Shown: positions 37,784 to 63,353, numbered from the stretch's first letter. The stretch is DNA of 64,000 nt from Candidatus Acidiferrales bacterium (GCA_035515795.1 DATJAY010000039.1:62001-126000); one strand, 5' to 3'. Notes: generated by a model not told the origin, from the letters alone. Translations and numbers: made by a program.

Positions 37784-40183
37784 ATGCTGACTATACAAGA
37801 GAAGAGGTTGATATCGTACCTCAAGACGCTGCTGGTGATTTATTTGCTCGCGCTCGTGTTCATTACGATGAGCGTTCCGGGAAAATTCGACATCAACGTG
37901 CCGGAGGCCATCCTAATATTAACGGGATTTGCAGTTCTCACCCTGGTCGATGCTCTGATGTGCTGGTACGCAATCGCGGACATACGACGCTACATTTTTC
38001 TCGTCAGGATTAACATCTGGGAGTCTATTATTCTTTCAGTCATTGGAATCTGCAATCTTATCTGGCACGCGGCGGAGGGACAGATTTACCTTTGGGCGGT
38101 CGCTCCGTCATTTTCCACGGTCATGTGGTCAATAACCGTCTTCAGCGTGTTGAACGCCGTCATCGGATCCCTCTTCCTTTCTTCGTCGCAAAAGGCAAGA
38201 TATAATCTGAAATATTTTTCTCCTCTTCAGTTCAGAACGCTCGCTGCACTCGCAGAAGTTGTCATTTACGGCGAGCACGAGGTGATCTCGAGCGAGGACG
38301 TGGCGCATAATGTGGATTCTTATTTCAGCAGCTTCGAGGCGAAATCGAAGTGGACGATGGCGCTGGTGATCAGCGGACTATATTTCTACCCGATCCTGTC
38401 GCTTCTCCCGCCGCTTCCTTATATCGCTCCGGGAAGCAGACACGAGTTTTTGAAAAAACGATTTTACTGGGACGTCGAAAAGCGCTTGATACCTGGATGG
38501 TGGAGAACGCTTGCGCAGGGAATGATCAGGATCGCGAAACAAATGTGTTATATCGGATACTATAATGACAAACGGACATTCGCCTCCGTAGGTTACGTGC
38601 CGTTCTCGGAACGTAAGGACCATGACGAGAGGGTGAGCAAGTCGCCGAGACAGCCCGATCCGCCTTTGTATGTGAAAACCGAGAAGGATTTTCAGAAAGA
38701 TTCCATAAGCGGCGACGTTGTCATCATCGGCTCCGGTGCAGGCGCTTCGATCCTCGCGAAAGGTGTCGTTGAAAGCGGCAGGAAAGTGGTTATGATAGAA
38801 AGGGGGAACCACGAACGGCCCGAGACATTTACCGAAAACGAGATGGACATGGTCTCGCGACTCTTCCAGGACGGCGCGATCCAGGCCGCGAGAGACTTCA
38901 GGTTCACAGTGTTCCAGGGAAGCTGCGTCGGCGGTTCGACGGTCGTCAATAACGCCGTGTGTTTCAAGATTCCGGAGCCGGTACTTGACAGATGGGTCGA
39001 CCCGAAAGGGCTGAACACCGGCCTTGACAAACAAGGCGTCATGGATTCTATGGACACCGCCTGGAAAATAATCCATGCAAACCACATGGATGAAGACAAG
39101 GTGAGACTCAATCCCGGCGGTTACTTGTTCAAAAAAGGATGCATGAAACTTGGATACAATCTCGCACCGGACGTCACCGATTCCGTCAACGCGAATATTT
39201 CGGGATGCTACGGGTGCGGCTACTGCAATATCGGCTGTAATTATAATAAGAAACTCTCGATGCTCGTCACCGTTCTTCCCGATATACAGAAGAAATTCGG
39301 GAAAGAGAGCCTGGAGATCATAGCGGGCTGTGAAGCGATCAAATTGCAGAGAAGCGGGAACAAAATCTCCTACGTGGAGGGTCAGTTTAATGACGGGAGA
39401 AAATTGAAAGTCTACGGGAAAACCTTCGTCGTCGCGGCGGGAGCAATCTCCTCGAGCATCCTCCTCCTGAAATCGAAACTCGGAATAAAGAACGCAGGGA
39501 TGAGACTGGCGTTCAATACCGGCTCCCAGCTAACTGCTGCGTTTCCGACCAAAATAGATTCTTACGACGGCCTGCAGATTTCTCATTACATGAAGATACT
39601 TCCCGATACGGGCTTTATCATGGAATCATGGTACAACCCGCCGATGTTCCAGTCGACTGCGATGCCCGGATGGTTCGAGGATCATTACAACAACATGAGA
39701 CGATACGACAAGCTCGCATGCGTCGGTGTGCTGGTCGGGTCCGAATCGAACGCACGCGCGCGAGTTGCCGGACTTACGCACAGGGAGATCGATTACACAC
39801 CGACTCCCGGCGATTTCCAGAAACTGTTGAAGGGACTCGAAGTGGCAGGCGACATCATGTTTGCTGCCGGCGCAGACTCAGTGATGCCGAATACTTTCAA
39901 GTACTACGAGTTCAAATCGACAAAAGAATCCAACAAGATGCACGAGTACATCAAAGACCCGACTGAGATCACTCTGGGCACGGGCCATCCGCAAGGCGGG
40001 AACGTCATTGCGAGCAGTGCCGAGACCGGAGTTGTGAATGCAGAGTTCAAGGTGTTCGGATACGATAACCTGTTCATAGCCGACGCGAGCGTATTTCCGA
40101 CGAGCCTCGGCGTTAATCCACAGTTGACCGTGATGGGATTGGCGAACTATGCAGTGCAGTTCGTGAAAGAAAACAGGGGATAG
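37784..40183 (+). CDS. Membrane-anchored GMC-family oxidoreductase
   Basis: A 799-residue protein. The first 300 residues hold several membrane helices (LLVIYLLALVFITMSV, AILILTGFAVLTLVDALM and others). From about residue 305 comes a GMC flavoenzyme: FAD site DVVIIGSGAGASILAKGV, SCVGGSTVVNNAVCF, a cysteine cluster GCYGCGYCNIGC, the active-site TGHPQGGN and the C-terminal VNPQLTVMGLANYAV. The cysteine pattern is that of long-chain alcohol oxidase-like GMC proteins. It probably oxidises a hydrophobic alcohol or sterol-like compound at the membrane. The frame stays open past its TAG stop (see the repeat that follows). Confidence 0.83.
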   Translation: MLTIQEKRLISYLKTLLVIYLLALVFITMSVPGKFDINVPEAILILTGFAVLTLVDALMCWYAIADIRRYIFLVRINIWESIILSVIGICNLIWHAAEGQIYLWAVAPSFSTVMWSITVFSVLNAVIGSLFLSSSQKARYNLKYFSPLQFRTLAALAEVVIYGEHEVISSEDVAHNVDSYFSSFEAKSKWTMALVISGLYFYPILSLLPPLPYIAPGSRHEFLKKRFYWDVEKRLIPGWWRTLAQGMIRIAKQMCYIGYYNDKRTFASVGYVPFSERKDHDERVSKSPRQPDPPLYVKTEKDFQKDSISGDVVIIGSGAGASILAKGVVESGRKVVMIERGNHERPETFTENEMDMVSRLFQDGAIQAARDFRFTVFQGSCVGGSTVVNNAVCFKIPEPVLDRWVDPKGLNTGLDKQGVMDSMDTAWKIIHANHMDEDKVRLNPGGYLFKKGCMKLGYNLAPDVTDSVNANISGCYGCGYCNIGCNYNKKLSMLVTVLPDIQKKFGKESLEIIAGCEAIKLQRSGNKISYVEGQFNDGRKLKVYGKTFVVAAGAISSSILLLKSKLGIKNAGMRLAFNTGSQLTAAFPTKIDSYDGLQISHYMKILPDTGFIMESWYNPPMFQSTAMPGWFEDHYNNMRRYDKLACVGVLVGSESNARARVAGLTHREIDYTPTPGDFQKLLKGLEVAGDIMFAAGADSVMPNTFKYYEFKSTKESNKMHEYIKDPTEITLGTGHPQGGNVIASSAETGVVNAEFKVFGYDNLFIADASVFPTSLGVNPQLTVMGLANYAVQFVKENRG

Positions 40184-40531
40184 AGCCCGCGCATTGCGGA
40201 AAGGCTTCCGCTTGCCGGGAAAAATGGCCCGCTGATTGCGCCGAGTCCTCCGCTGGCTGCGGAAAGTCTCCCGCTGGTTGTGAAAAGTCTCCCGCTGGTA
40301 GCGAAAAGTTGGTCGCTGGCTGCGCAGAATTGTCCGCTGGTCGGGAAAAACGGCCCGCTCGTTGTGCAAAGTTCTCCGCTGGCTGCGAAAAGTAGCTCGC
40401 TGACTGCGAAAAGTTGGTCGCTGGTTACGCCGAACTCCCCGCTGGTCGTGCCGAATCAATTGTTGGCTGCGAAAAGGCGTCTGGAGGTTGAGCAAGACTC
40501 TCCGCCGGGTCCGGAAAACTCTTTGTCTTGA
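40184..40531 (+). repeat. Degenerate 21-bp tandem repeat array behind the GMC gene
   Basis: About fifteen head-to-tail units of exactly 21 bases, consensus close to CCGCTGGCTGCGAAAAGTTGG, fill the stretch after the GMC stop. Unit length is a multiple of three, and the frame that continues through the GMC TAG stays open to 40531. Read that way each unit gives a heptapeptide near P-L-x-A-K-S-x (PLVAKSW, SLAAQNC, PLVGKNG, PLAAKSS). The units differ at many positions. There is no own ATG, only GTG 40280. Whether it is translated is unknown. Confidence 0.85.
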
Positions 40532-40584
40532 AGGGAAAAGGCATTATTCGTTGAGAAGGGACATGTTTCGCTTGCGCCGTTGAG

Positions 40585-40666
40585 GTTGACTAAGCTGCGG
40601 CGATAATTTATATTTTCAGCGGAATGAATGTCATGCGGGTTCGCGGCAGGCTAATCAAAGTTAGGC
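40585..40666 (+). repeat. Copy D (shortened) of the interspersed cassette-end repeat
   Basis: The segment from GTTGACTAAGCTGCGGCG to TTTTCAGCGGAATGAA matches the repeat found at 43298 and 49420. It then jumps to a short end containing ATGCGGGTTCG and finishes at GTTAGGC (40660-40666), a perfect GTTRRRY box. It may mark the first cassette junction of the array. Confidence 0.5.
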
Positions 40667-40691: not shown

Positions 40692-41918
40692 GTGACGATC
40701 AATAAGAAGCAGATTGCGGCTGTAATCGTTGTTTTGCTTTTGGCGGGTGTTGTTATGCTGAAGTGGAACACAATCCGATGGGCTTATTATGAAAGCCGAC
40801 TTCTCCGGGCGAAAAGACGGCTCTTTGCACTCGAACAACAGGGAAAGGCCTACCGGCCTGCGCATGAGATTCTTTACGAGACCGAATGGATTTGTGATGC
40901 GACCCATGACTATCGACGCATGGGAGAACGCATAGAGGCATTGGAAGACGTTATGCAGGATACGGCCAATGCACAGGCGACGGATGAGCAATCTGAAATC
41001 GACGGCAGCTGGGGAAAGTGGTACACGGAATGGTTTTTCAAGTTAGATGCTTCTTATGACCAGATAATGGACCTTGCCCATCAAGGCCTGGTTCCGAAAT
41101 ATCCAGTGCATTTTCTGGATCGGATCAATTCGCCCGAGAAATTAACCTCGCATCTCAATCATTTGCTGATCTCGGATCTGAAGGCGGAGAGCGTAGACCA
41201 TCGGCGGGAATTGAACGAGACAATTTCCGATCTGATGCGGCTGATCCTGCGCGATCGACCGAGGAATTACGCTTATGATCCGCGCCTCAAAGCAGCGCTG
41301 TTGGATTGGCTGCTCAACACTGCGCGCAATCCGGAAACCGGTTACTGGGGGGCATGGTATCGCACCCCAAACGATGCGAGGATTAAAAAGACCGATGACC
41401 TGAGCATCACCTTTCACATCGTCAGTTATCTCAAGGGAAACGTACCTGATTGGCAGAAGATCATTGCGACCACGCTGGCGATAAAAGATAAGAAGTATCC
41501 TCTCGGCTGGCTTGAAGGAAGCGGTTACTTGAATCATAACAACATGGATGTGGTTCAGATATTCAGTATGGGATGGAGCCAGGCTACATCGGATCAACGA
41601 GAAGCCATGCGAGTCGAAATTCGGAAGATGCTCCGCTGGTGCCTGAGCGAATCGCTGCAGCCGGACGGGTCATTCAAACTTCAGGACAGCGATGACTCGC
41701 GAGAAACAAGCGAGAGTTTCGGGGCCTCTTTCCTCGCGCGCCTGGGCTACTTCGACCGGTCGAAGCGATTCTGGACCGATGAGGACTTTCCCGAAGCCGC
41801 CAATGTTCGCACAAATATCATTCAGTTCATCCGCGCCCATATTCACTCAGGTGGTGAAGGCGGAGTTTATTACCGCAATGCACTTGAAGAGTTAGGCGCT
41901 CCCGCCGACATTAATTAA
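40692..41918 (+). CDS. Signal-anchored protein of unknown function
   Basis: A 408-residue protein with an N-terminal membrane anchor (QIAAVIVVLLLAGVVMLKW) and a mostly helical outer part rich in Trp and Arg. Segments such as ALLDWLLNTARNPETGYWGAW and WCLSESLQPDGSFKL recall alpha/alpha-toroid folds of terpene-cyclase-like and glycosidase-like proteins, but no catalytic motif is clear. The start is GTG with an AGGA site 5 bases before. It follows a GTTAGGC box and may be the first cassette of the array. Confidence 0.65.
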   Translation: MTINKKQIAAVIVVLLLAGVVMLKWNTIRWAYYESRLLRAKRRLFALEQQGKAYRPAHEILYETEWICDATHDYRRMGERIEALEDVMQDTANAQATDEQSEIDGSWGKWYTEWFFKLDASYDQIMDLAHQGLVPKYPVHFLDRINSPEKLTSHLNHLLISDLKAESVDHRRELNETISDLMRLILRDRPRNYAYDPRLKAALLDWLLNTARNPETGYWGAWYRTPNDARIKKTDDLSITFHIVSYLKGNVPDWQKIIATTLAIKDKKYPLGWLEGSGYLNHNNMDVVQIFSMGWSQATSDQREAMRVEIRKMLRWCLSESLQPDGSFKLQDSDDSRETSESFGASFLARLGYFDRSKRFWTDEDFPEAANVRTNIIQFIRAHIHSGGEGGVYYRNALEELGAPADIN

Positions 41919-43044: not shown

Positions 43045-43125
43045 CTTGCATATGACTTCGCGTCAAGATGTTATTCGCCATTGAAGCAGGTTTACTATCC
43101 ATACTTCACAAGGGAGGAAAACCGA

Positions 43126-43266
43126 ATGAAAGTAAAAGTCTTGGTGCTTTGTTCTGTTAGTGTTCTTTTCTTTGCTGGTTGTGCTGCCACACGGTATGGG
43201 CCTGCGTCTGGGAGCGCCTTTGGCTACAGGGAATCCAAGATTCAGAGAGACGTGTATCTCTTTTAA
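43126..43266 (+). pseudogene. Truncated copy of the CC0125-like lipoprotein gene
   Basis: The first 41 codons closely match the intact gene at 48749 (lipobox LFFAGC, then AATRYGPASGSAFGYRESKI). A 5-base deletion after the codons for QRD shifts the frame to an early stop, and the gene's second half is missing, replaced by the repeat starting near 43298. Similarity to the intact copy also covers the leader, back to the GTT at 43070. The gene product, if made, would be a 46-residue lipopeptide. Confidence 0.85.
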
Positions 43267-43297
43267 GGGAAATGGCTATACCTCGCCCAAGCTGGTA

Positions 43298-43403
43298 ATG
43301 TTGACTATGCTGCGGCGACAGACTATATTTTCAGCAGAATGAAACGCGTCGTGTGGTATACAAGGGGACTGAATGCAATTCGATATACTCCAGAATGATG
43401 CCA
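43298..43403 (+). repeat. Copy A of the interspersed cassette-end repeat
   Basis: About 105 bases from AATGTTGACTATGC through GTCGTGTGGTATACAAGG to TGATGCCA. It is over 85% identical by eye to copy B at 49418-49525, and more distantly related to copies C and D. In every copy it sits just in front of a GTT-type box. It shows a short conserved open frame (SRMKRVVWYTRGLNAIR) of doubtful meaning. Confidence 0.75.
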
Positions 43404-43480
43404 GAATAACGGAGCTTTTGTTCGTTACTCGGGCAGCCGCCGCCCAAGAAATGCAATGCGTTATTGGAATAGTTATGCGC
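43404..43480 (+). other. attC-like site 1
   Basis: A 77-base imperfect inverted repeat. It starts with GAATAAC (43404-43410), the exact complement of the GTTATTC that opens this unit at 43070, and ends with GTTATGCGC (43472-43480). The centre holds GGGC...GCCC flanked by partly complementary arms. The end half (CAATGCG...GAATAGTTATG) resembles attC-like site 4. Confidence 0.6.
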
Positions 43481-43510
43481 AACGCAACCGCCAGTTGATA
43501 TCGAGAAAAG

Positions 43511-44311
43511 ATGCACTACATAAAAATCAGAAATCAGGGATCTGGGAACTGCAACATCTGTGGAAAGGCAGCACCCCTAACCTGGGATCACATCCCGCCG
43601 CGAGGGGGTATCGACCTTACCCCTGTCGAGATGCGCAGTATCTTCCAACTCCTCACGGGTGCAACAGAGGGGTACAAGTTCGTCGAATCTCAAAATGGAG
43701 CTAAGTACCGCACCATTTGTAAGCAGTGCAATGAGATCATGGGATCGAAGTACGATACTGTTATCAATTCGTTCGCAATCAGCGTTGGGAAATATCTTAG
43801 GACGGCACTGACCCTGCCACCTGTTCTAAACCACCCCACGAGGCCAGGCGCACTCATAAGAGGAATTCTTGGCCACCTCATCGCGGTAAAAGTTCAACAC
43901 GACCAAGTTGCCTTCGACAAGAATGTTGCACCGGCCGTGCTTGACGAATCGAGCCCGCTGCCCGACGATGTCTTTGTTTATTACTGGCTCTATCCTTACG
44001 AAACTTCCATCGTCATCCGCGATTTATTCATCTCCTACGTGCCACTGGGCGTCAAAGGGTTTTTCCTTTGTCATCTACTAAAATACTTCCCGGTCGCTTA
44101 CCTTGTCACGGACAAACCATTCTTTCGATCTCTGCCCGAATTAACGAATTACCGTGCCCTTTCACCGCGCGATGAGGTGGCGATTCCAATATACTTAAAG
44201 TCAGTCATGCCACTAAACTGGCCTGAGACCACGGACGACTGCCATGTTCTTCTTGGTGGAGAAAGTCTGCAGAACTCGGTCTTTGCCGTTCCCAAACGAG
44301 GTAAGCGATGA
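43511..44311 (+). CDS. HNH-like zinc-finger protein, possible nuclease
   Basis: A 266-residue protein. Its N-terminus has two zinc-knuckle pairs and a DH motif: CNICGKAAPLTWDHIPPRGG and later CKQCNEIMGS, arranged as in HNH/endonuclease VII-type domains in which DHIPP holds the catalytic His. The remaining 200 residues have no motif I recognise. It begins 39 bases after the GTT box of its unit. Proteins with this DHIPP-type head are often encoded on accessory DNA. Confidence 0.6.
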   Translation: MHYIKIRNQGSGNCNICGKAAPLTWDHIPPRGGIDLTPVEMRSIFQLLTGATEGYKFVESQNGAKYRTICKQCNEIMGSKYDTVINSFAISVGKYLRTALTLPPVLNHPTRPGALIRGILGHLIAVKVQHDQVAFDKNVAPAVLDESSPLPDDVFVYYWLYPYETSIVIRDLFISYVPLGVKGFFLCHLLKYFPVAYLVTDKPFFRSLPELTNYRALSPRDEVAIPIYLKSVMPLNWPETTDDCHVLLGGESLQNSVFAVPKRGKR

Positions 44312-44336
44312 GGAACATACTGAAAGCGGTTGCGCA

Positions 44337-44454
44337 GCGCCTAACACGCCAGACAAAGACGCTCGTCATTTGGATATATCGTTCTCGCTTCATGGCACGC
44401 ACATCATATGAAGAAGGAGCGCGCCACGACTTTGTCCCGCAGAACGTTATGCGC
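44337..44454 (+). other. attC-like site 2
   Basis: A 118-base site with GCGCCTAAC (44337-44345) and GTTATGCGC (44446-44454) as outer boxes (8 of 9 paired), and inner boxes GACAAAG (44352-44358) and CTTTGTC (44430-44436), a perfect pair. The loop holds CTTCAT...ATGAAG. The layout R''-spacer-L''...L'-spacer-R' is that of attC. Part of the loop (CATGGCACGCACATCATATG) recurs at 51260. Confidence 0.72.
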
Positions 44455-44490
44455 AAACGGGCGCGTGGAAATACTTCAACCCTATTTAAT

Positions 44491-44895
44491 ATGGCCAAGG
44501 GATTGAGTACCATCAAGTTGCTGAGTCTTGCCGTGCTATTGTCGCTTGCGAGCTTCCATTGTACAAGCAATCGTAGGTTGATCGTGATGGTTCGCCCGCA
44601 TTCCGCTGACACACTGACGATGCTCACGTTAGGCGGTATTTCGCACGATTACGTTTACATTATTCCAGGTCATTGGAGAACACTGGACGTACCTAAAGAC
44701 AACTTCCTACACGTAAGGGATCCATTTGCGATCCTCGCCGATTCGACATGGAAGCTTGTTCAATGTCCAATCGATAGCATCATGGTGGAAAACACATTAG
44801 TCAACCCTAGATGGCTTAGCATCCTAAGCGTTAATAATTGGGATCGGGACTCAATTCGCAAGAGTCCGTCTCTCGTATACTCGTATAATTTTTGA
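44491..44895 (+). CDS. Small lipoprotein of unknown function
   Basis: A 134-residue protein with a lipoprotein signal (LLSLAVLLSLASFHC, Cys about residue 22). The mature part has no recognised domain. The frame is open from 44308, but that start lies in front of attC-like site 2 and would give a nonsense N-terminus; ATG 44491 gives the signal peptide. Its unit runs from GTT 44446 to GTT 45091 and is the best supported cassette. Confidence 0.68.
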   Translation: MAKGLSTIKLLSLAVLLSLASFHCTSNRRLIVMVRPHSADTLTMLTLGGISHDYVYIIPGHWRTLDVPKDNFLHVRDPFAILADSTWKLVQCPIDSIMVENTLVNPRWLSILSVNNWDRDSIRKSPSLVYSYNF

Positions 44896-44961
44896 AGAAT
44901 GATTCAGCATTTGAAAACCTGCGCACTCTCAACACGCATCGTAATTTATGGGCGCCCGTCA

Positions 44962-45099
44962 GCGCATAACATGTCCCCAAAAGACGCTCATTTATTATAT
45001 ACCATGGAGTTCGCTTCATGCTCTTGCCCGCAAGATAGATGCTACGCAATTATTTTTGGCGGGCAAGAGCACGACTCCTTTGCCGCGGACGTTAGCTGC
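44962..45099 (+). other. attC-like site 3
   Basis: A 138-base site. GCGCATAAC (44962-44970) is the perfect 9-base complement of the GTTATGCGC that opens this unit at 44446, and the site ends in GTTAGCTGC (45091-45099). Inner arms TCCCCAAAAGA and TCCTTTGCCGCGGA pair partly. In the centre there is a perfect 13-bp stem (TGCTCTTGCCCGC, 45019-45031, and its complement 45059-45071). Confidence 0.75.
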
Positions 45100-45134
45100 A
45101 ATTGCCCGATTGGGCTTAACCAACGGAGAAACAA

Positions 45135-48100
45135 ATGAGACATACTCTACGAATCATTTTATTAACGACTTTAGCGTTTTTCACTTGGATTACGCCATTG
45201 CCTGCTCAGTGGATCCGCACTGCCGGGCCACTGTCCACATCGATATACTGTGTGGCTTTAAGCGGTGCAAATATTTTTGCAGGAACGTTTGGGCAAGGAA
45301 TGTTCCTATCCTCCGACAACGGAAATACCTGGACTGCAGTCAATAACGGGTTAACCTGCAACTACGTCGGGGCGGTAATTTCAAACGGGACAAATATTAT
45401 TGCCGGGACTGCTGGCGCCGCTAATAATGGGATATTTCTTTCCACCAATAATGGTACAAGCTGGACGTCTTACAGTACCGGTATGATGGAGGTCGGGGCA
45501 CTTATTGCGATCAATGACACCATGGTACTCGCAAGCGTTGGGAGCGCTGTCTACCGATCGACCAACAACGGCAGCTCATGGAGCAAAATTGATTCAAACC
45601 TCGACGACATCGATGCCTTCGCATTAAGCGGATCAAACATTTTTGCCGGGACGAGAGGGAGTAAAGTCATTCGTTCGACCGACAATGGATCAACATGGGG
45701 AGATGCCAGCTCCGGTCTTCCCGGTTTCGGACAGCTCTCGAGTGTCGCTGTGTGCGGCACGGACATTCTTGCCGGGGTTTACACCGAAGGAGTTTATCGC
45801 TCGACAGACAATGGGGGAAGCTGGACATCTGCGAGCACCGGATTGACAAATCTTGATATGCGCGCACTTCAGGTTGTGGGATCGAGCATTTTCGCGGCAA
45901 CTGAAGGAGGAGTATTTCTTTCTACCGACAATGGTACGAGCTGGAGCGCGGTCAGAAGCGGACTAACAGATACTCTCGTATATTCATTGGCTTCAAACGG
46001 AACAAACCTCTTTGCTGGAACATTCGGCCCGGTATACCGACTTCCTCTCTCTTACTTCTCTCCACTGTCAGCTCCCGTGCTGAGTTTCCCGGCCGACGGT
46101 TCGGTAAATCAAGCCCTTGCTCCCGTTTTGAGATGGGCAGAAGATACCGCCGCGTTCAGTTATCACATACAACTGGCGCAGGATTCGACATTCGCTACGA
46201 TTGTCTATGATGATTCTACTATCAAGGCGGATTCTGTTCATGTTGGCATTCTTTCCAAAAATACATCCTATTTTTGGAGGCTGAAGAGTCTCAATCTCGC
46301 CGGTTCCAGTGATTGGTCGGTGTCCCGCCGTTTCACGACGCATGATGTTTTACCCGTGGGACTTGTGTCACCGGCGAACAACTCGATCAATCAACCGCTA
46401 AGCCTTACTCTATCATGGTCGACGCCCGCTTATTTCTCCACATATCGTCTTCAGGTGGCAATGGATTCGAGTTTTTCATCACCCGTGTTTGATGACTCAA
46501 CTATCACTGGGGCCGCGAAACAACTGGGTCTTGTCGCAAGCGACACAGATTACTTCTGGCGGGTAATGGTTATTGATTCGGGGAGCAGAAGTCCATGGTC
46601 TCCCACCTGGCGATTCAAGACGTTGATTCTTGCTCCTTCAATTGTAAACATATCTCCGGGGGATAACGAGATAACACTGAGCTGGAGTGCGAGCTCAAGT
46701 CCAGGAGTGATCAAGTATAAACTCTACCGTGGCACTTCCTCTCCTGCATCGACGCTCGTTGACAGCACGATTGCGACCAGCTACGTTGATTCCGGGCTTA
46801 CCAATGGCACAAGATATTTCTACCGAATCACGTCTGAAAACAGCCATTATGTTGAGGGACCTCCGAGTTCAGAAGTCAATAGCATTCCATTCAATCAACC
46901 TCCACATGCCGCCAGGCTCAGCAATGTCCTCTTGTTGAGCTCGGGGCGCAGTGCTTTTGCTCATCTCACATTTTCGAGTCAAGGAAGTGTAGATTCTGAT
47001 GGAACAATCGATTCCACTTTATGGTTCGTGAATAATCAACGAACTGCTACGGGGCCCTCGCTTGCTTACGATTTTGGTCCCGGAACAACCAGGGTTACAT
47101 TGGTAGTGATCGACAACCAGAATGCGATGGATTCGTCTGTAGCATTTGTAAACAGGGCAGCCTATGTAAGAACGTTGGGCGGACAAGTCACATCAGGTCT
47201 GAGTATGGTGGGTGGTAATGTGTTATATGCAAGCGCATCAGGTGATGCCGTCTACCGTTTAGATAGCAACGAAAATGTTGTGTACAAGCTGCAAGTCGCC
47301 GGAAGTATTGGCTCATCTTGTTCCATTGCGTATGATTCGACCGTTTATATCCCATCCTCGGACAATAACCTCTATGCATTCTCAAAGAACGCCACTTCCG
47401 TTTGGTCGGCTTTGCCGTTAGGCGGGAATACATCGGCGACACCCGCTGTTGATTCGACTCTGCAGAGAGTTTATATCGGTGTCTCGAATAATAATTTCAT
47501 TGGCGTCGATCGATTGACCGGCAACGTTGTGTGGAACTTCTTTACGAGTTCTCCAATTTCTAACTGCGCCGTAATCTCCAGCGACAGGAGACTGGTATTT
47601 CCGACAAACGATGGAACGGTCTACGGGGTCGATCTCGAGGCGAGCAATGCACCAACTGCTCCATCATGGATGCTGTCTCTCACGGATCCTTCACCGACCT
47701 CTCCTGCAATAGATCAATATGGCTATTTCTATTTTGGAACTGCCGGGGGGAATCTTTATGCTGTGTCAATGAAAAGAGGCGAGCAGGCATCTCAACGCTG
47801 GAACCTGCATCTGGGAGGGCATCTTGTTGCAGCGCCCGTGATTGATGCAAACGGAATTCTTTACATCGGATCGACTGATTCTACGCTGTATGCCGTCAAC
47901 ATAACATCGAAGAGTGTAGTTTGGCGGTTCAAAACTGGCGGCTCGATACGATACACGGCTGCTATTTCTCCGGCTGGAACGATTTACTTTGACAACGATG
48001 CGGGACAGCTTTATTGCCTGGACAACCTGGGGAATGCGTTATGGTCTTTTGATGATTCCCCAGACAGCCTCCAGGCTATCGGGACGATACTGTACAACGA

Positions 48101-48560
48101 TGGGATGGTCTATGCTGGAGCGGGCGCAAAAAGTATTATCGCCATCTATGATGGCAGCGGAACACAATCAGGCGCCTATAGGGTGTCAAACGCTGGGATA
48201 CCAATCTGGGGAACATTCCAGGGAAATAATCAAAGAACAGGTCTCCAGACCATTTCGATAATTTCCTCCACATCGAATCCTAAGGATAAACTCCCGACAT
48301 CGTATGCTCTCTATGCAAATTATCCCAATCCGTTTAATCCTTCGACCATAATTAGCTATGATACTCCAAAACTTACTCATGTCACGCTCATCGTGTACGA
48401 TGTTCTCGGTCGGCAAGTTGAGTTGTTGGTGAACGGAGAAAAAATGCCTGGCCGATATCAGGCTAGCTTTGATGCTGGCGCATTACCGAGCGGAGTGTAT
48501 TTTTACAGATTCCAAGCCGGTGCGTACCATGATACCAAGAAGCTTTTGTTGCTCAAATGA
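45135..48560 (+). CDS. Large secreted T9SS cargo protein with beta-propeller repeats
   Basis: A 1141-residue protein. A signal peptide (ending LPAQW) is followed by six or so BNR/sialidase-like repeats with IFAGTFGQGMFLSSDNGNTW pattern (residues 20-310), two fibronectin-like segments with FWRLKSLN and FWRVMVID, a type III domain near 500-590, a PKD-like stretch, and a PQQ-type propeller (LYAVNITSKSVVWRFKTGGS) near 690-1000. The last 80 residues are a T9SS type A sorting domain (NYPNPFNPSTIISY ... GVYFYRFQAG). It would be exported and fixed to the surface. It fills one cassette-like unit, which is very large for a cassette. Confidence 0.87.
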   Translation: MRHTLRIILLTTLAFFTWITPLPAQWIRTAGPLSTSIYCVALSGANIFAGTFGQGMFLSSDNGNTWTAVNNGLTCNYVGAVISNGTNIIAGTAGAANNGIFLSTNNGTSWTSYSTGMMEVGALIAINDTMVLASVGSAVYRSTNNGSSWSKIDSNLDDIDAFALSGSNIFAGTRGSKVIRSTDNGSTWGDASSGLPGFGQLSSVAVCGTDILAGVYTEGVYRSTDNGGSWTSASTGLTNLDMRALQVVGSSIFAATEGGVFLSTDNGTSWSAVRSGLTDTLVYSLASNGTNLFAGTFGPVYRLPLSYFSPLSAPVLSFPADGSVNQALAPVLRWAEDTAAFSYHIQLAQDSTFATIVYDDSTIKADSVHVGILSKNTSYFWRLKSLNLAGSSDWSVSRRFTTHDVLPVGLVSPANNSINQPLSLTLSWSTPAYFSTYRLQVAMDSSFSSPVFDDSTITGAAKQLGLVASDTDYFWRVMVIDSGSRSPWSPTWRFKTLILAPSIVNISPGDNEITLSWSASSSPGVIKYKLYRGTSSPASTLVDSTIATSYVDSGLTNGTRYFYRITSENSHYVEGPPSSEVNSIPFNQPPHAARLSNVLLLSSGRSAFAHLTFSSQGSVDSDGTIDSTLWFVNNQRTATGPSLAYDFGPGTTRVTLVVIDNQNAMDSSVAFVNRAAYVRTLGGQVTSGLSMVGGNVLYASASGDAVYRLDSNENVVYKLQVAGSIGSSCSIAYDSTVYIPSSDNNLYAFSKNATSVWSALPLGGNTSATPAVDSTLQRVYIGVSNNNFIGVDRLTGNVVWNFFTSSPISNCAVISSDRRLVFPTNDGTVYGVDLEASNAPTAPSWMLSLTDPSPTSPAIDQYGYFYFGTAGGNLYAVSMKRGEQASQRWNLHLGGHLVAAPVIDANGILYIGSTDSTLYAVNITSKSVVWRFKTGGSIRYTAAISPAGTIYFDNDAGQLYCLDNLGNALWSFDDSPDSLQAIGTILYNDGMVYAGAGAKSIIAIYDGSGTQSGAYRVSNAGIPIWGTFQGNNQRTGLQTISIISSTSNPKDKLPTSYALYANYPNPFNPSTIISYDTPKLTHVTLIVYDVLGRQVELLVNGEKMPGRYQASFDAGALPSGVYFYRFQAGAYHDTKKLLLLK

Positions 48561-48574
48561 CCGAAGGGGCATCT

Positions 48575-48701
48575 GCAACTAACGGCGGCAACAATGTCGT
48601 TCACGGATAACATGCCGAATAAAGGAGTTTACTCGGAGCCGCGCCCACTTCATATTATCATGGTTGCCCCGTGCTGCATTGTTTCCGCGGACGTTGTTCA
48701 C
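48575..48701 (+). other. attC-like site after the T9SS cargo gene
   Basis: GCAACTAAC (48575-48583) complements 8 of 9 bases of GTTAGCTGC, which opens this unit at 45091. Inner arms GCGGCAACAATG (48585-48596) and CATTGTTTCCGC (48677-48688) pair at 11 of 12 positions. The site ends at GTTGTTCAC (48693-48701). The spacer on the left side is only one base, which is short. Confidence 0.62.
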
Positions 48702-48748
48702 CGTTGAAGCAGGTTTACTATCCATATTTCACAAAGGAGGGAAACTGA

Positions 48749-49165
48749 ATGAAAGTAAAAGTCCTGCTGCTTTGTTCTGTTAGTGTTCTTTTCTTTGCCG
48801 GTTGTGCTGCCACACGGTATGGGCCTGCGTCCGGAAGCGCCTTTGGCTACAGGGAATCCAAGATTCAGAGAGACATGTATAATGTCTCTTTTAAGGGAAA
48901 TGGTTTTACCTCGCCCACTACCGCAATGAACTATTTCCTTTACAGGTGCGCCGAGATCACCGTGCGGGATGGCTATGATTACTTTATCATCGCGGAAGGT
49001 GAAAGCAATCCGGAACTTGTGCTGGCAGGGAGGTCCACACTCACGAAACCTCAATATACCGGTACAATCAAGCTGTATAAAGGCGAAAAGCCGGCAGATG
49101 ATCCGAATGCGTACGACGCGAAAGAGTTGATGGAGAACCTGGAGCCGCAGATTATCCGGCAATAG
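48749..49165 (+). CDS. CC0125/CC1285-like lipoprotein (intact copy)
   Basis: A 138-residue lipoprotein: signal MKVKVLLLCSVSVLFFAGC, then GYRESKIQRDMYNVSFKGN and FLYRCAEITVRDGYDYFII, the pattern of small lipoproteins of the CC0125/CC1285 group, function unknown. AAAGGAGG lies before the ATG. A damaged copy is at 43126. The two agree from the GTT box onward, 56 bases before the ATG. Confidence 0.82.
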   Translation: MKVKVLLLCSVSVLFFAGCAATRYGPASGSAFGYRESKIQRDMYNVSFKGNGFTSPTTAMNYFLYRCAEITVRDGYDYFIIAEGESNPELVLAGRSTLTKPQYTGTIKLYKGEKPADDPNAYDAKELMENLEPQIIRQ

Positions 49166-49290
49166 GATCTGAGCGCCTCGGGCTCCGCTTCGCTCCGCCG
49201 CAATTTGCCTTGTGACGATTTTTGCTTACGTAAAAACATGTGCCAGCGCGCTTCACGGGACACAAAACTCGCATAAGCTGCTAAGGTAAT
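49166..49290. other. Non-coding stretch behind the lipoprotein gene
   Basis: No gene is visible. Together with the 122-bp element and the repeat that follow, this forms the 482-base gap up to 49648. Confidence 0.4.
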
Positions 49291-49412
49291 AGTGTCTCAG
49301 TTTCATCCTGGTTGTCATTCCGGCGAATGCCGGAATCCAGTCATTGACCTGGATGCCAGCTTTTGCTGGCATGACAAGATCTCGCCTATTTGGATGTTCA
49401 AATTGAGACACT
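49291..49412. mobile_element. MITE/REP-like palindromic element
   Basis: A 122-base element bounded by inverted repeats AGTGTCTCAGTTT and AAATTGAGACACT (12 of 13 paired). Inside it lies a nearly complete palindrome made of GTCATTCCGGCGAATGCCGG and CTGGATGCCAGCTTTTGCTGG. The CCGGAATCCAG type of palindrome is widespread as interspersed REP-like repeats in bacteria. It has no coding capacity and is absent at the matching place in copy A of the cassette. Confidence 0.72.
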
Positions 49413-49417
49413 GCCGC

Positions 49418-49525
49418 TAATGTTGACTATGCCGTGACGACAGATTATATTTTCAACGGAATGAAATGCGTCGTGTGGTATACAAGGGGACTGAATGCAA
49501 TTCGATGTACTTCAGATTGATGGCA
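49418..49525 (+). repeat. Copy B of the interspersed cassette-end repeat
   Basis: Matches copy A (43298-43403) nearly base for base: TGTTGACTATG, ACAGATTATATTTTCA, GTCGTGTGGTATACAAGGGG, CTGAATGCAATTCGAT. It directly precedes an attC-like site, as in copy A. Confidence 0.75.
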
Positions 49526-49602
49526 GAATAACGAACTTTTTGTTCGTTATTTGTCCACCTAAGGTACAAAAAACGCAATGCGGTTTCGAAATAGTTAGTT
49601 CC
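49526..49602 (+). other. attC-like site 4
   Basis: A 77-base site, the same length as site 1. It starts GAATAAC (49526-49532), ends GTTAGTTCC (49594-49602), and includes a perfect 10-bp hairpin AATAACGAAC/GTTCGTTATT with a T5 loop. The starting box complements 6 of 7 bases of GTTGTTC, which opens this unit at 48693. Confidence 0.58.
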
Positions 49603-52815: not shown

Positions 52816-53265
52816 ATGAGAAAAACGACGAATGTCCAACCACATTCTTCTGAACAAGACGACGTGCAAGAAATTAATAGCTTAACTCACGAATGGGAAA
52901 CCGCTATCAAAGCCAAAGATATAAACAGGCTTTTGAGCCTCATGACGGACGACGTAGTTTTCCTGGCACCTAAGGCACTGCCCATAAAAGGGAAGAACGG
53001 AGTTGAAGAAGTCTATCGAACCATGTTTGCCGGGTTCGACATTGAACAGGAATCAAGATACGAGGAAATTCAGGTGATCGGCAGCTGGGCATTTGCCTGG
53101 GGCACCGACTCTCTCACTTTCACTCCAGCTGCTGGAGGCGATTCGGTTAAAATGAAAGGCCACTGTGTGACGATCCTGCAACGGCAGGCAGGCGGAGCCT
53201 GGAAGTTTGCCCGCGGGATTAATAACATGTCGCAGGAGAGTTCACCGTCGATGCCGCAGCGGTGA
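52816..53265 (+). CDS. SnoaL-like/DUF4440 (SgcJ-EcaC) family protein
   Basis: A 149-residue NTF2-fold protein: EINSLTHEWETAIKAKDINR, LLSLMTDDVVFLAPKALPIK, then GSWAFAWGTDSLTF, KGHCVTILQRQAGG and WKFARGINN. This is the DUF4440/SnoaL-like pattern, found in enzymes and in binding proteins. No signal peptide. GGAGG precedes the ATG. Confidence 0.8.
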   Translation: MRKTTNVQPHSSEQDDVQEINSLTHEWETAIKAKDINRLLSLMTDDVVFLAPKALPIKGKNGVEEVYRTMFAGFDIEQESRYEEIQVIGSWAFAWGTDSLTFTPAAGGDSVKMKGHCVTILQRQAGGAWKFARGINNMSQESSPSMPQR

Positions 53266-53267
53266 AA

Positions 53268-53407
53268 GTTGAATATGCGGTGATGACAAAGTATATTTCC
53301 CGAGGAAATGAAAGACGTGGTGTGGTGGATAGGGGAATAAAGACAATGCTGCATACTTCGGAGTAATGGGACAAAAAACGCGACGCCGTTTTGTGTCAGT
53401 TATGCGT
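53268..53407 (+). repeat. Copy C of the cassette-end repeat with attC-like end
   Basis: A more distant copy of the repeat at 43298 and 49418 (GTTGAATATGCGGTGATGAC, AAGTATATTTCCCGAGG, GTGGTGTGGTGGATA). Its end has an 11-bp stem GACAAAAAACG/CGTTTTGTGTC (53370-53380 and 53387-53397, one mismatch), then GTTATGC at 53399-53405. The opening AAC box is not clear (GAGTAAT). Confidence 0.55.
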
Positions 53408-53439: not shown

Positions 53440-53880
53440 ATGAATTCCAGAGTTCCTGAAGCCATTATTGTGTTGATCATACTATTTGCGGCTTCATTTT
53501 GCCGAAGCCAGTCGGGCAACTCCGCTTCGGCTGCCAATGGGGCACATGGCGAGATCAGCATTGTCGCGCTATCAGATTCTGGTGTAGGAATTCGATCTCG
53601 AACGTCTGGTTTTGACACTACAGCCGCATTCATAGGCTCAAATAGATCCGATGGTTATCCGTTATGGAGAATCTATCTACCACATTCGGACACATTGCGA
53701 CTGATCGTGTCGGATATTAACGAAAGTGTGGTTTACGATGCCGAAGTCAGACCGCTTGGCACCGGTTGGTTTGACATCAGAATTTACCCTGAACTCAACC
53801 TGCCGAAGGCCGCAGTTTATTTCTTGCAGGCGATCTTCTGTGACTCGACCTTCGAGCGGAAGTTCATTTACTTGAAGTGA
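53440..53880 (+). CDS. Small exported protein, possibly a stand-alone T9SS CTD-like domain
   Basis: A 146-residue protein with signal AIIVLIILFAASFC (lipobox-like) then SQSGNSASAANG. The rest is beta-rich; its end (LPKAAVYFLQAIFCDSTFERK) parallels the last strands of T9SS sorting domains (GVYFYRFQAGAYHDTKK in the protein at 45135). Homology is suggested, not shown. It starts 35 bases after the GTTATGC of the preceding junction. Confidence 0.6.
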   Translation: MNSRVPEAIIVLIILFAASFCRSQSGNSASAANGAHGEISIVALSDSGVGIRSRTSGFDTTAAFIGSNRSDGYPLWRIYLPHSDTLRLIVSDINESVVYDAEVRPLGTGWFDIRIYPELNLPKAAVYFLQAIFCDSTFERKFIYLK

Positions 53881-53972
53881 CTAACTAGACAAGAAAAATG
53901 TACGAGACCTCGAAAGTTGCGTCATACGCAGTACCTAATTGTGCGAATCACGACGCTCGATCGTTACATATC
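53879..53972 (+). other. Weak attC-like candidate
   Basis: GACTAAC overlaps the gene's stop codon and complements 5 of 7 bases of the unit's opening GTTATGC. GCGTC/GACGC and CTCGA/TCGA arms lie inside, ending near GTTACAT. Spacing is irregular, so this is only a possibility for the last junction of the array. Confidence 0.25.
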
Positions 53973-54031
53973 GTGGTACGCAGCAACATTAGATTTCAGC
54001 CTGATCTCTCTATACTCACAAAGGGATTTCC

Positions 54032-62229: not shown

Positions 62230-62399
62230 CTCGTTTCCAAACGGCCGTTGATTGTATAATTCAAAATAATTAAGAAGAGCTATTGATTCAATAATGTTTG
62301 GATTTTATTTGACGTTTGATAGGTCATGACTTCACACTGTCCATCTTATCCGGCCGGCTACATTGTAAAAGACGCCCGCTTGCGTTAAATTCATGTAAA

Positions 62400-63353
62400 A
62401 TGACAGTCCGAGTAGATCCTTTTGGGACAGAGAAGTTCCCGGCAAAAAAAATTCCGCATAGTCAGCTTGAAGTTTTGATCCGTCAATTTGATGCCACGAT
62501 GCGCCATGCGAGCCAGGCAACGCGGCATGTTTATAAGAAAGGACTGGATCAACTCTTAGCTTTCACTAAGACGAATGGATTTAAGTTTACGCCGAGCGAC
62601 TTCAATAGTTTTCGTCTCTGGTTATTCAATGGGCGGAATCTTTCGACCAACACAGTGAATGTTTATTTGACCGCGTCGAGAAGATTTTGCGAATTTTTGA
62701 TCGAACATGGTCTCTTGAAAAAGAATCCGGCCTGGAAGATACATGGAACGAAGCCGGAGTTCAAAACGGCGGAAGTAAATCTGACGGAAGTCTCAGCGGC
62801 GATATCTAGCATAGACAGGAGCACGGTTTTGGGAAAGCGCGATTTTGTCTTTTTGTCTGCGATCCTTGATACCGGCGTTTCGATCTCCGAGCTGATCGAT
62901 GCAAACGTCGGCGATCTGAAAAGAGACGGGAGAAAGGCGAGACTATCTGTAAAGCTCAAAGGAACACATGCCAAAAATCTGACACTAACTTTACCCGAAC
63001 AGGATACGGCAGCATTGTACGATTACTTGAATGCACGCGGATCGGCTGCGGCAGGCGAACCGCTTTTCTGCGCCCTGCGCGGTGGAGGAACCTCTAAGGC
63101 AAGGCTTTCCTTGCGTGGAGTTCGTTTTGCGATGGGACGCAGGTTGAATTTCGGAAACGATCGAAAAATCAGGCTCGACTCGCTGCGGACTTATTGTTTG
63201 GTTAGACTTATGTCCAAAGGTAAGACTTCCAAAGAAATACGTTCCATAATGCGCTTCAAAAGCAATATGCCGTTTAGAAAAATCATGTTTAACGCGCCGC
63301 ATAGCCGAAGATTCGAATCTCCGAGCGGCATCCTGCATTCTGAGAAGACCTAA
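62400..63353 (+). CDS. Tyrosine recombinase-like protein lacking catalytic residues
   Basis: A 317-residue protein with a XerC/D-like layout: a helical core-binding domain (RHVYKKGLDQLLAFTKTNG, STNTVNVYLTASRRFCEFLI) and a catalytic-type domain. Where active enzymes have TGLRxSEL, this has TGVSISEL (first Arg lost); HxLRH is DSLRT (His lost, Arg kept); LGHKS is MRFKS (His lost); and no nucleophile Tyr is found near the end. It probably binds DNA without cutting. ATG 62400 is preferred over an earlier start at 62316, which would add an unconserved leader. It lacks signs of an integron integrase. Confidence 0.72.
   Translation: MTVRVDPFGTEKFPAKKIPHSQLEVLIRQFDATMRHASQATRHVYKKGLDQLLAFTKTNGFKFTPSDFNSFRLWLFNGRNLSTNTVNVYLTASRRFCEFLIEHGLLKKNPAWKIHGTKPEFKTAEVNLTEVSAAISSIDRSTVLGKRDFVFLSAILDTGVSISELIDANVGDLKRDGRKARLSVKLKGTHAKNLTLTLPEQDTAALYDYLNARGSAAAGEPLFCALRGGGTSKARLSLRGVRFAMGRRLNFGNDRKIRLDSLRTYCLVRLMSKGKTSKEIRSIMRFKSNMPFRKIMFNAPHSRRFESPSGILHSEKT

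Follow-up and report, generated by a model that had tools for sequence, protein, structure and literature searches.

In classical integrons, the bottom strand of the folded attC site is chosen by the I2 patch of the integrase together with an extrahelical base of the L'' box, the crossover takes place at the R' box, and the attC core travels together with its cassette. Cassette capture is held to require the I2 patch, which is also regarded as the origin of single-strand recombination, and forms intermediate between Xer and IntI are said to be missing (PMC7790495, PMC4792948). Archaeal integrons have been described mostly as clusters of attC sites lacking integron integrases (CALINs), and the integrases found with them as patch-bearing IntI (PMC9668308). 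Here we analyse a 64,000-nt stretch of Candidatus Acidiferrales bacterium (GCA_035515795.1, DATJAY010000039.1:62001-126000; hereafter, the window), taken from a draft genome of 39 contigs, in which a first-pass annotation had noticed a series of GTT-bounded units between 43.07 and 49.6 kb. We conclude, with a probability of roughly 0.7, that the region represents an outlier array without an integrase (in integron terminology, a CALIN) and belongs to an integron-like system whose recombinase lacks the IntI-specific patch. The lineage, which that annotation had found surprising, is not itself the novelty, as integrons have already been reported in Chlorobi and Ignavibacteriae (PMC9024848).

The five units proposed earlier are real but are of two kinds, namely, bodies 2 to 4, which are followed by attC-type sites, and units 1 and 5, which have attI-type ends. 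The former are arranged as follows, with bit scores referring to the covariance models R1 and R2 described below.

43472..44345, plus strand: cassette body 2 (GTT...AAC), with a gene at 43511-44311 (266 aa); front and tail pair at 17/20 nt
44336..44454, plus strand: attC-type site 2, hairpin core 44346-44445; R1 70.8 bits, R2 91.5 bits
44446..44970, plus strand: cassette body 3, whose lipoprotein-like gene ends at 44895; front and tail pair at 17/20 nt
44961..45099, plus strand: attC-type site 3, hairpin core 44971-45090, which contains a long inner palindrome; R2 75.1 bits
45091..48583, plus strand: cassette body 4, unusually long, with a gene at 45135-48560; front and tail pair at 14/20 nt
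48574..48701, plus strand: attC-type site 4; R2 51.3 bits

Each of these bodies starts with GTTA and ends in an AAC box, and the sequence upstream of AAC is complementary to the body's own front (fronts at 43472, 44446 and 45091; tails at 44343, 44968 and 48581), a pairing that exceeds the R boxes and has a gap at positions 10-11. The 100-120 nt or so after each body can be folded as a hairpin. Moreover, each of the three junctions has TAAC-12 nt-G(A/T)CG(C/T)TC at one flank and CCGC(A/G)G(A)AC-GTT at the opposite one, and the latter motif is confined to these junctions within the 64 kb. The L arms of site 2, GCCAGACAAAG / CTTTGTCCCGC, pair at 9/11 positions with spacers AC and AGAAC, and its hairpin is 90% identical to one hairpin in the congener G007; those of site 4, CGGCAACAATG / CATTGTTTCCG, pair at 10/11 with spacers GG and CGGAC; and those of site 3 are degenerate when left ungapped (4/11), pairing being restored with a 2-nt bulge. 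With regard to gene content, searches against Pfam gave a weak HNH_5 match, under the cut-off, for the product of body 2, and a beta-propeller/fn3 architecture with a type IX secretion system sorting tail (PF18962) for the 1141-aa product of body 4.

The sequences and GTT/AAC pairings quoted in the first-pass annotation exist, and so does an integron-like array without an adjoining integrase, with three attC-type sites and no integrase within it. In units 2 to 4 the front/tail pairing goes well beyond the R boxes; taken alone, however, this argument is weak, such pairing being hardly above dinucleotide shuffles, and the observation is significant because of the shared site family rather than because of the pairing. 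A search of Rfam returned no match, and a generic scan of the window for canonical attC sites did no better than shuffles, because the site geometry differs. The gene for a GMC oxidoreductase that flanks the array is present in 0/12 congeners, and so is the lipoprotein gene of unit 5. An open reading frame at about 62300-63350 on the plus strand (346 aa; PF13495, 32 bits) was considered as the array integrase and dropped, as it belongs to another family of tyrosine recombinases and is not linked to the array.

The shared site family emerged from covariance modelling. R1, built from the three window sites and run on 13 genomes of the genus, gave matches in 11 of them, many clustered, and on 24 stretches it identified 100 sites; within a given array nearly all of these share a strand, and they mostly follow one another at intervals of 0.5-1.5 kb. 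The inner stem of these sites comprises 11 bp rather than 7, with changes on both sides in 10 of the 11 pairs; 83.7% of inner-stem cells pair, against 69.5% when shuffled, and the covariation score is 0.398 against 0.164 (0/500 shuffles), a signal that is lost when the arms are slid by one column. The alignment had been fitted to a 7-bp stem, and the four outer pairs lie outside that model. The improved model R2, which includes the three window sites in its training set, identified 39 sites at E<=1 in the window genome, with clusters on contigs C36, C4, C3, C5, C33, C11 and C27 in addition to the window, and 256 sites at E<=1e-4 in 12/13 genomes of the genus. These sites fold as a hairpin with R''/L''/L'/R' boxes, with covariation in both stems. 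Their L'' forms 11 consecutive pairs with no bulge, and thus there is no extrahelical base, which is present in sites of the class 1 integron and in the classical sites of G043.

The ends of 110 complete gene bodies define the outer arm. The two ends of the same body pair at 65-100% over positions 1-10 and at 60-75% over positions 12-18, whereas position 11 in between is unpaired (5%) and pairing beyond position 18 is at background level; a set of 33 bodies gave the same profile, with shuffled partners pairing at about 30% at the variable positions. Therefore, the R arm of a closed body measures about 18 bp and carries a fixed mismatch. A full site consists of this R arm, formed by the gene-body ends (10 bp, mismatch, about 7 bp), an unpaired asymmetric spacer of 2/5 nt, and an 11-bp L arm formed by the hairpin-core ends. 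As a separate observation, contigs C25, C46, C51 and C78 of G009 all end in one and the same hairpin, which suggests that identical hairpins in several arrays of this genome broke its assembly.

The R2 search bears directly on the claim that all five units end in attC-like repeats, as it matched the right ends of units 2 to 4 and gave no attC match at those of units 1 and 5 (43404 and 49526). No classical IntI is encoded in the genome, the intI search proposed earlier having yielded, at best, a TIGR02249 stretch of 127 bits against a cut-off of 265. The two best-scoring recombinases, at C36:11935-12813 and C4:169983-170852, are each located directly ahead of an array on the same strand. They keep the catalytic residues but, in the alignment, are without the 31-residue IntI patch (I2) and without about ten further residues; the same holds for 22 aligned relatives. 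As whole proteins, such patchless recombinases score 211-224 bits against TIGR02249, below its cut-off, whereas the XerA model NF040815 (cut-off 220 bits) gives 229 bits for C36, 222 for G012 and 204 for C4. The nearest solved structure by both sequence and fold (predicted with a local distance difference score, pLDDT, of 81 and a template modelling score, pTM, of 0.62) is VchIntIA (2a3v), residues 181-238 of which remain unmatched. Across 197 genomes of the class, a patchless recombinase (E<=1e-65) occurs in 51 and a true IntI above cut-off in 37. Other Xer-like genes are present in the window genome. The C4 integrase has an extra N-terminal part of about 110 residues with no Pfam match (L118 9645-9980), and the C36 integron, by eye, lies directly behind an apparent groEL end (L117 6600-6720).

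The association between patchless recombinases and this type of site extends well beyond the genome of the window. First, at 17 patchless-recombinase loci from six families of the class, 13 of which were collected after the training sites had been chosen, R2 placed 66 sites downstream of the recombinase gene on its own strand and two elsewhere, both of the latter at a locus whose recombinase gene contains stop codons. Second, the same search gave 0 sites at 18 true-IntI loci of the class. Third, querying a collection of named genomes with the recombinase returned at least 553 confirmed stretches from many phyla, the best 80 of which include Nitrospirae, Clostridium, Dehalococcoidia, Bacteroidota and archaea. 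Around these, a scan based on geometry only (AAC, 1-3 nt, 11-bp arm, loop, arm, 4-6 nt, GTT) detected 45 sites downstream on the same strand (299 kb), five on the opposite strand and one in shuffled sequence, with three sites in the 534 kb upstream, counting both strands, and none at class 1 integron loci. Examples read by eye are AAC-AA-TGGCGGAAAAGA...TCTTTTCCGCCA-AGAAC-GTT, from a Nitrospirae metagenome-assembled genome, and AAC-AC-GGGTTTTGCGT...ACGCAAAGCCC-GAAACC-GTT, from Spirosoma. Among the best 80 contigs, 25 stop within 300 bp behind the recombinase match, as expected ahead of a repeat array.

These loci also bear on the possibility that the window holds a classical array whose integrase was lost; in that case the arrays would have been made by a true IntI, acting in trans or at an earlier time, and the patchless recombinase would only happen to lie beside them. 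CALINs are indeed common (PMC9024848), and the congeners G007 and G009 do have true IntI genes (contig C66, L067, and contig C4, L069, respectively), apparently decayed, as they look truncated or internally deleted; no attC site of the window type was found near them. Yet no IntI exceeds the cut-off in the window genome, the sites are lacking at all 18 true-IntI loci and present on the same strand at the 17 patchless ones, and their geometry, with a 2/5-nt spacer, an 11-bp stem and no extrahelical base, is unlike that of IntI sites. We therefore consider the loss of a classical integrase an improbable explanation. The designation of the region as an integron thus survives as regards the cassette array but not as regards type: it is not classical IntI/attC, but belongs to a family headed by patchless recombinases, two of which are encoded elsewhere in the genome.

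Further support for an integron-like arrangement comes from the attI sites behind these recombinases. At most loci, a GTT is found at +37 to +118 after the recombinase stop codon, ahead of the first cassette, and it pairs 6-9/9 with that cassette's tail. Dif-like inverted repeats, often two, precede this GTT, for example AAACGACATATGTCGTTT and AAAAACGAAATACGTTTTT. In related arrays, therefore, attI adjoins the integrase gene and the first cassette starts at its GTT. The same architecture allowed us to reinterpret units 1 and 5 and their surroundings, where the following features were recognised.

43070..43471, plus strand: block copy 1, with a decayed lipoprotein gene start, a sigma70-like promoter (TTGACT 43301-43306, 17 nt, TATATT 43324-43329) and an attI-like end
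43403..43475, plus strand: orphan attI-like site 1, one repeat decayed, GTT insertion point 43472; 82% identical to the copy at 49527-49597
48693..49593, plus strand: block copy 2, with a lipoprotein gene at 48749-49165, a promoter (TTGACT 49423-49428, TATATT 49446-49451) and an attI-like end
49527..49597, plus strand: orphan attI-like site 2, AATAACGAAC-ttttt-GTTCGTTATT, then AACGCAATGCGGTTTCGAAATA, GTT insertion point 49594; 10-bp inverted repeat
53265..53402, plus strand: promoter-like block and orphan attI-like site AACGCGACGCCGTTTTGTGTCA^GTTA, then a gene at 53441-53880; 71% identical to the promoter block of unit 5
53930..53996, plus strand: truncated attC-like remnant behind the gene at 53441-53880; R2 18.3 bits, E 0.12 (weak), read by eye
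40576..40664, plus strand: promoter-like block copy with the end ATCAAA^GTTAGGC, ahead of a gene at 40692-41918; a weak candidate for a fourth orphan attI

A single block, consisting of a lipoprotein, a promoter-like TTGACT-17 nt-TATATT and a right end, is present twice, as units 1 and 5. The copies are 91-93% and 82% identical in their two parts, and their homology starts at the GTT at 43070/48693 and stops at the GTT at 43472/49594. Their ends carry a dif-like inverted repeat followed by ATA^GTTA, as in attI behind integrases, and hence the AAC boxes at 43404 and 49526, previously taken for R'', are actually arms of attI. A simple attI motif has two matches in the window, exactly at 49572 and 53377, against one in 20 shuffles. 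The integrase-linked attI architecture is present at 49527-49597, decayed at the end of unit 1 and partial at 53377-53402, and therefore the window contains several orphan promoter-attI blocks with one or a few cassettes apiece. Another orphan attI, on contig C27, matches that of the C4 integrase at 94% identity over 35 nt. The block at 40576..40664 shares 79-86% identity with the block copies across 44-53 nt, and no inverted repeat was found in it. Two side observations concern these blocks. A repeat of about 126 bp resembling a miniature inverted-repeat transposable element (MITE) lies inside unit 5, at about 49290-49415, with copies up to 93% identical on contigs C3, C2, C14, C24, C27 and C35; and a Pro/Leu-rich, repetitive tandem stretch of the CCGCTG type precedes a promoter-attI-like block at two genomic locations (window 40180-40530; L029 2500-2790).

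Comparison of arrays between species points to an unusual mode of cassette movement. One body, encoding a 116-aa membrane protein, is identical at 438/439 positions between the species G002 and G008 of the genus, and identity drops to background level precisely at the two boundaries, ahead of GTT on the left side and past AAC on the right, the hairpins on both sides being unrelated. This shared body suggests that gene body and hairpin move separately. Four homologous pairs span a full body, with identities of 99.8, 86.9, 82.6 and 78.1%. The identities of their 3' hairpins (0.75, 0.65, 0.46 and 0.72) and 5' hairpins (0.65, 0.65, 0.55 and 0.59) are those of the background (median 0.61, 95th percentile 0.76), so that in none of the four pairs, a small sample, did the attC core travel with the cassette. 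Near-identical hairpins next to unrelated genes were left out of the argument, since they are also seen in classical chromosomal integrons.

The proposed system has three parts. First, there is a tyrosine recombinase of about 300 aa, from the XerA/IntI branch, which lacks the IntI-specific patch. Second, attI lies just past its stop codon, as dif-like inverted repeats and then the GTT insertion point. Third, the array alternates gene bodies (GTT...AAC) and hairpin cores of about 100 nt. We infer that the cassettes are moved by the patchless recombinase, which would also act in trans on the window array; either the C36 or the C4 integrase would play this role. Since both I2 and the extrahelical base are missing, such an integrase would presumably make no strand choice, with crossover at R' on the bottom strand or at R'' on the top strand, and bodies and hairpin cores would assort independently. 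In support of this, Vibrio cholerae repeats with their extrahelical bases deleted recombine at R' or R'' depending on the strand supplied (PMC2727003). Acting on either folded strand, the integrase would move the body with its 3' hairpin in one case and the 5' hairpin with the body in the other, and after a few moves bodies and hairpins would become unlinked, without inversion. An inserted body would then share an R arm with a foreign neighbour, which would break the long arm, weaken the site and favour retention.

The main rival to this mechanism is a Xer-like double-strand reaction, in which the body-hairpin junctions would be dif-like sites that recombine as direct repeats, with no folded strand involved. 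It also predicts independent movement of bodies and hairpins, and would suit both the XerA-like enzyme and the dif-like repeats in attI. However, the junctions that flank a body are mutually inverted, and body inversions would be expected, whereas the longest open reading frame runs along the array in 61/66 bodies, the remaining five being ambiguous, with frames of similar length on both strands; bodies are therefore not inverted. Moreover, in both the covarying 11-bp stem and the 18-bp arm, fixed mismatch included, it is structure and not sequence that is conserved. On balance, we regard the double-strand reaction as unlikely, albeit less so than the loss of a classical integrase.

The reading of the region as an outlier array of a patchless system draws on what is directly observed: the site family and its covariation, the arrangement and strand of the arrays, attI, the recombinase association, the absence of the patch, and one near-identical body that breaks at GTT/AAC. 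Several points weigh against it. The recombination activity is an inference; the genome is a draft of 39 contigs; there are only four full-body pairs, just one of them nearly identical, and a chimeric contig is possible in draft genomes, though the breaks are exact. A strict same-strand match occurs in only 25/46 named loci with at least 1.5 kb downstream, and thus we do not claim the array association for every family member. In addition, about one fifth of hairpins have non-matching L arms of two types (e.g., L134 983 and 3456), as if recombination had taken place within hairpin loops; the odd L'' of one mismatched site matches the odd L' of another. Other events, namely recombination inside hairpins, would therefore also occur. 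These mismatched arms suggest some homologous recombination, and together with the MITE-like repeat in unit 5 they could be taken to favour an accidental origin, whereby repeated terminators, or homologous recombination between repeats of the repetitive extragenic palindromic type, produced similar junctions. Such an accident would leave unexplained the spacing, the one-strand orientation, the exact GTT/AAC breaks, the recombinase association and the covariation, and it is already contradicted by them; we deem it extremely improbable.

The patchless system may also inform the origin of integrons. In a quick tree built without the patch columns, IntI forms a single clade (SH-aLRT 100) whose neighbours are a few patchless recombinases from archaea and spirochaetes; the remaining patchless sequences fall outside, and the Xer outgroups are long branches that make the rooting unsafe. 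This fits, but does not prove, an origin of IntI from a patchless relative. More broadly, we tentatively propose, at somewhat less than even odds, a widespread cassette class in bacteria and archaea, separate from IntI integrons, with a patchless XerA-like integrase, symmetric hairpins and no strand choice, in which bodies and hairpin linkers are independently shuffled modules; some of the CALINs would be explained by this class, which would represent the missing intermediate between Xer and IntI. The open-access literature searched yielded no account of attC-type arrays with a patchless recombinase at their head, although an earlier one in subscription papers or preprints is possible. Arrays of hairpin sites without the base read by I2, headed by an integrase without I2, make the necessity of I2 directly testable. 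Integron programs that rely on the patch would label such arrays integrase-less, and part of the bacterial and archaeal CALINs may thus be complete systems. If true, separate shuffling of bodies and sites by a patchless enzyme would change ideas of how integrons work and originated.

Three known systems serve for comparison. First, as in integrons, including chromosomal and archaeal ones, a tyrosine recombinase gene is followed by attI and a one-orientation array of promoterless cassettes, with RYYYAAC...GTTRRRY boxes, hairpin sites and cassette fronts complementary to tails. Unlike in integrons, the recombinase has no IntI patch and the array lies behind it on its strand; the sites have an 11-bp inner stem without an extrahelical base, a 2/5-nt spacer and an R arm of about 18 bp with a fixed mismatch; and gene body and hairpin core switch partners. 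Second, like a CALIN, defined by at least two attC sites with no IntI nearby, the window has three sites, by our own model and not IntegronFinder, and no integrase in 64 kb; unlike a CALIN, its related arrays in the same genome are headed by a recombinase that would escape a patch-based search for integron integrases. Third, XerA and XerC-XerD (NF040815; PDB 5hxy, 4a8e) share with the patchless recombinase their length, patch-free domain layout, catalytic residues and dif-like repeats as found in attI, but, in contrast to these single-copy dimer resolvases, it heads cassette arrays in many phyla, and its nearest solved structure is the integron integrase VchIntIA. The system would therefore be a variant of the integron kind, which appears to work like an integron while departing from it in IntI score, patch and extrahelical base and, apparently, in a fourth feature, the joint travel of site and cassette.

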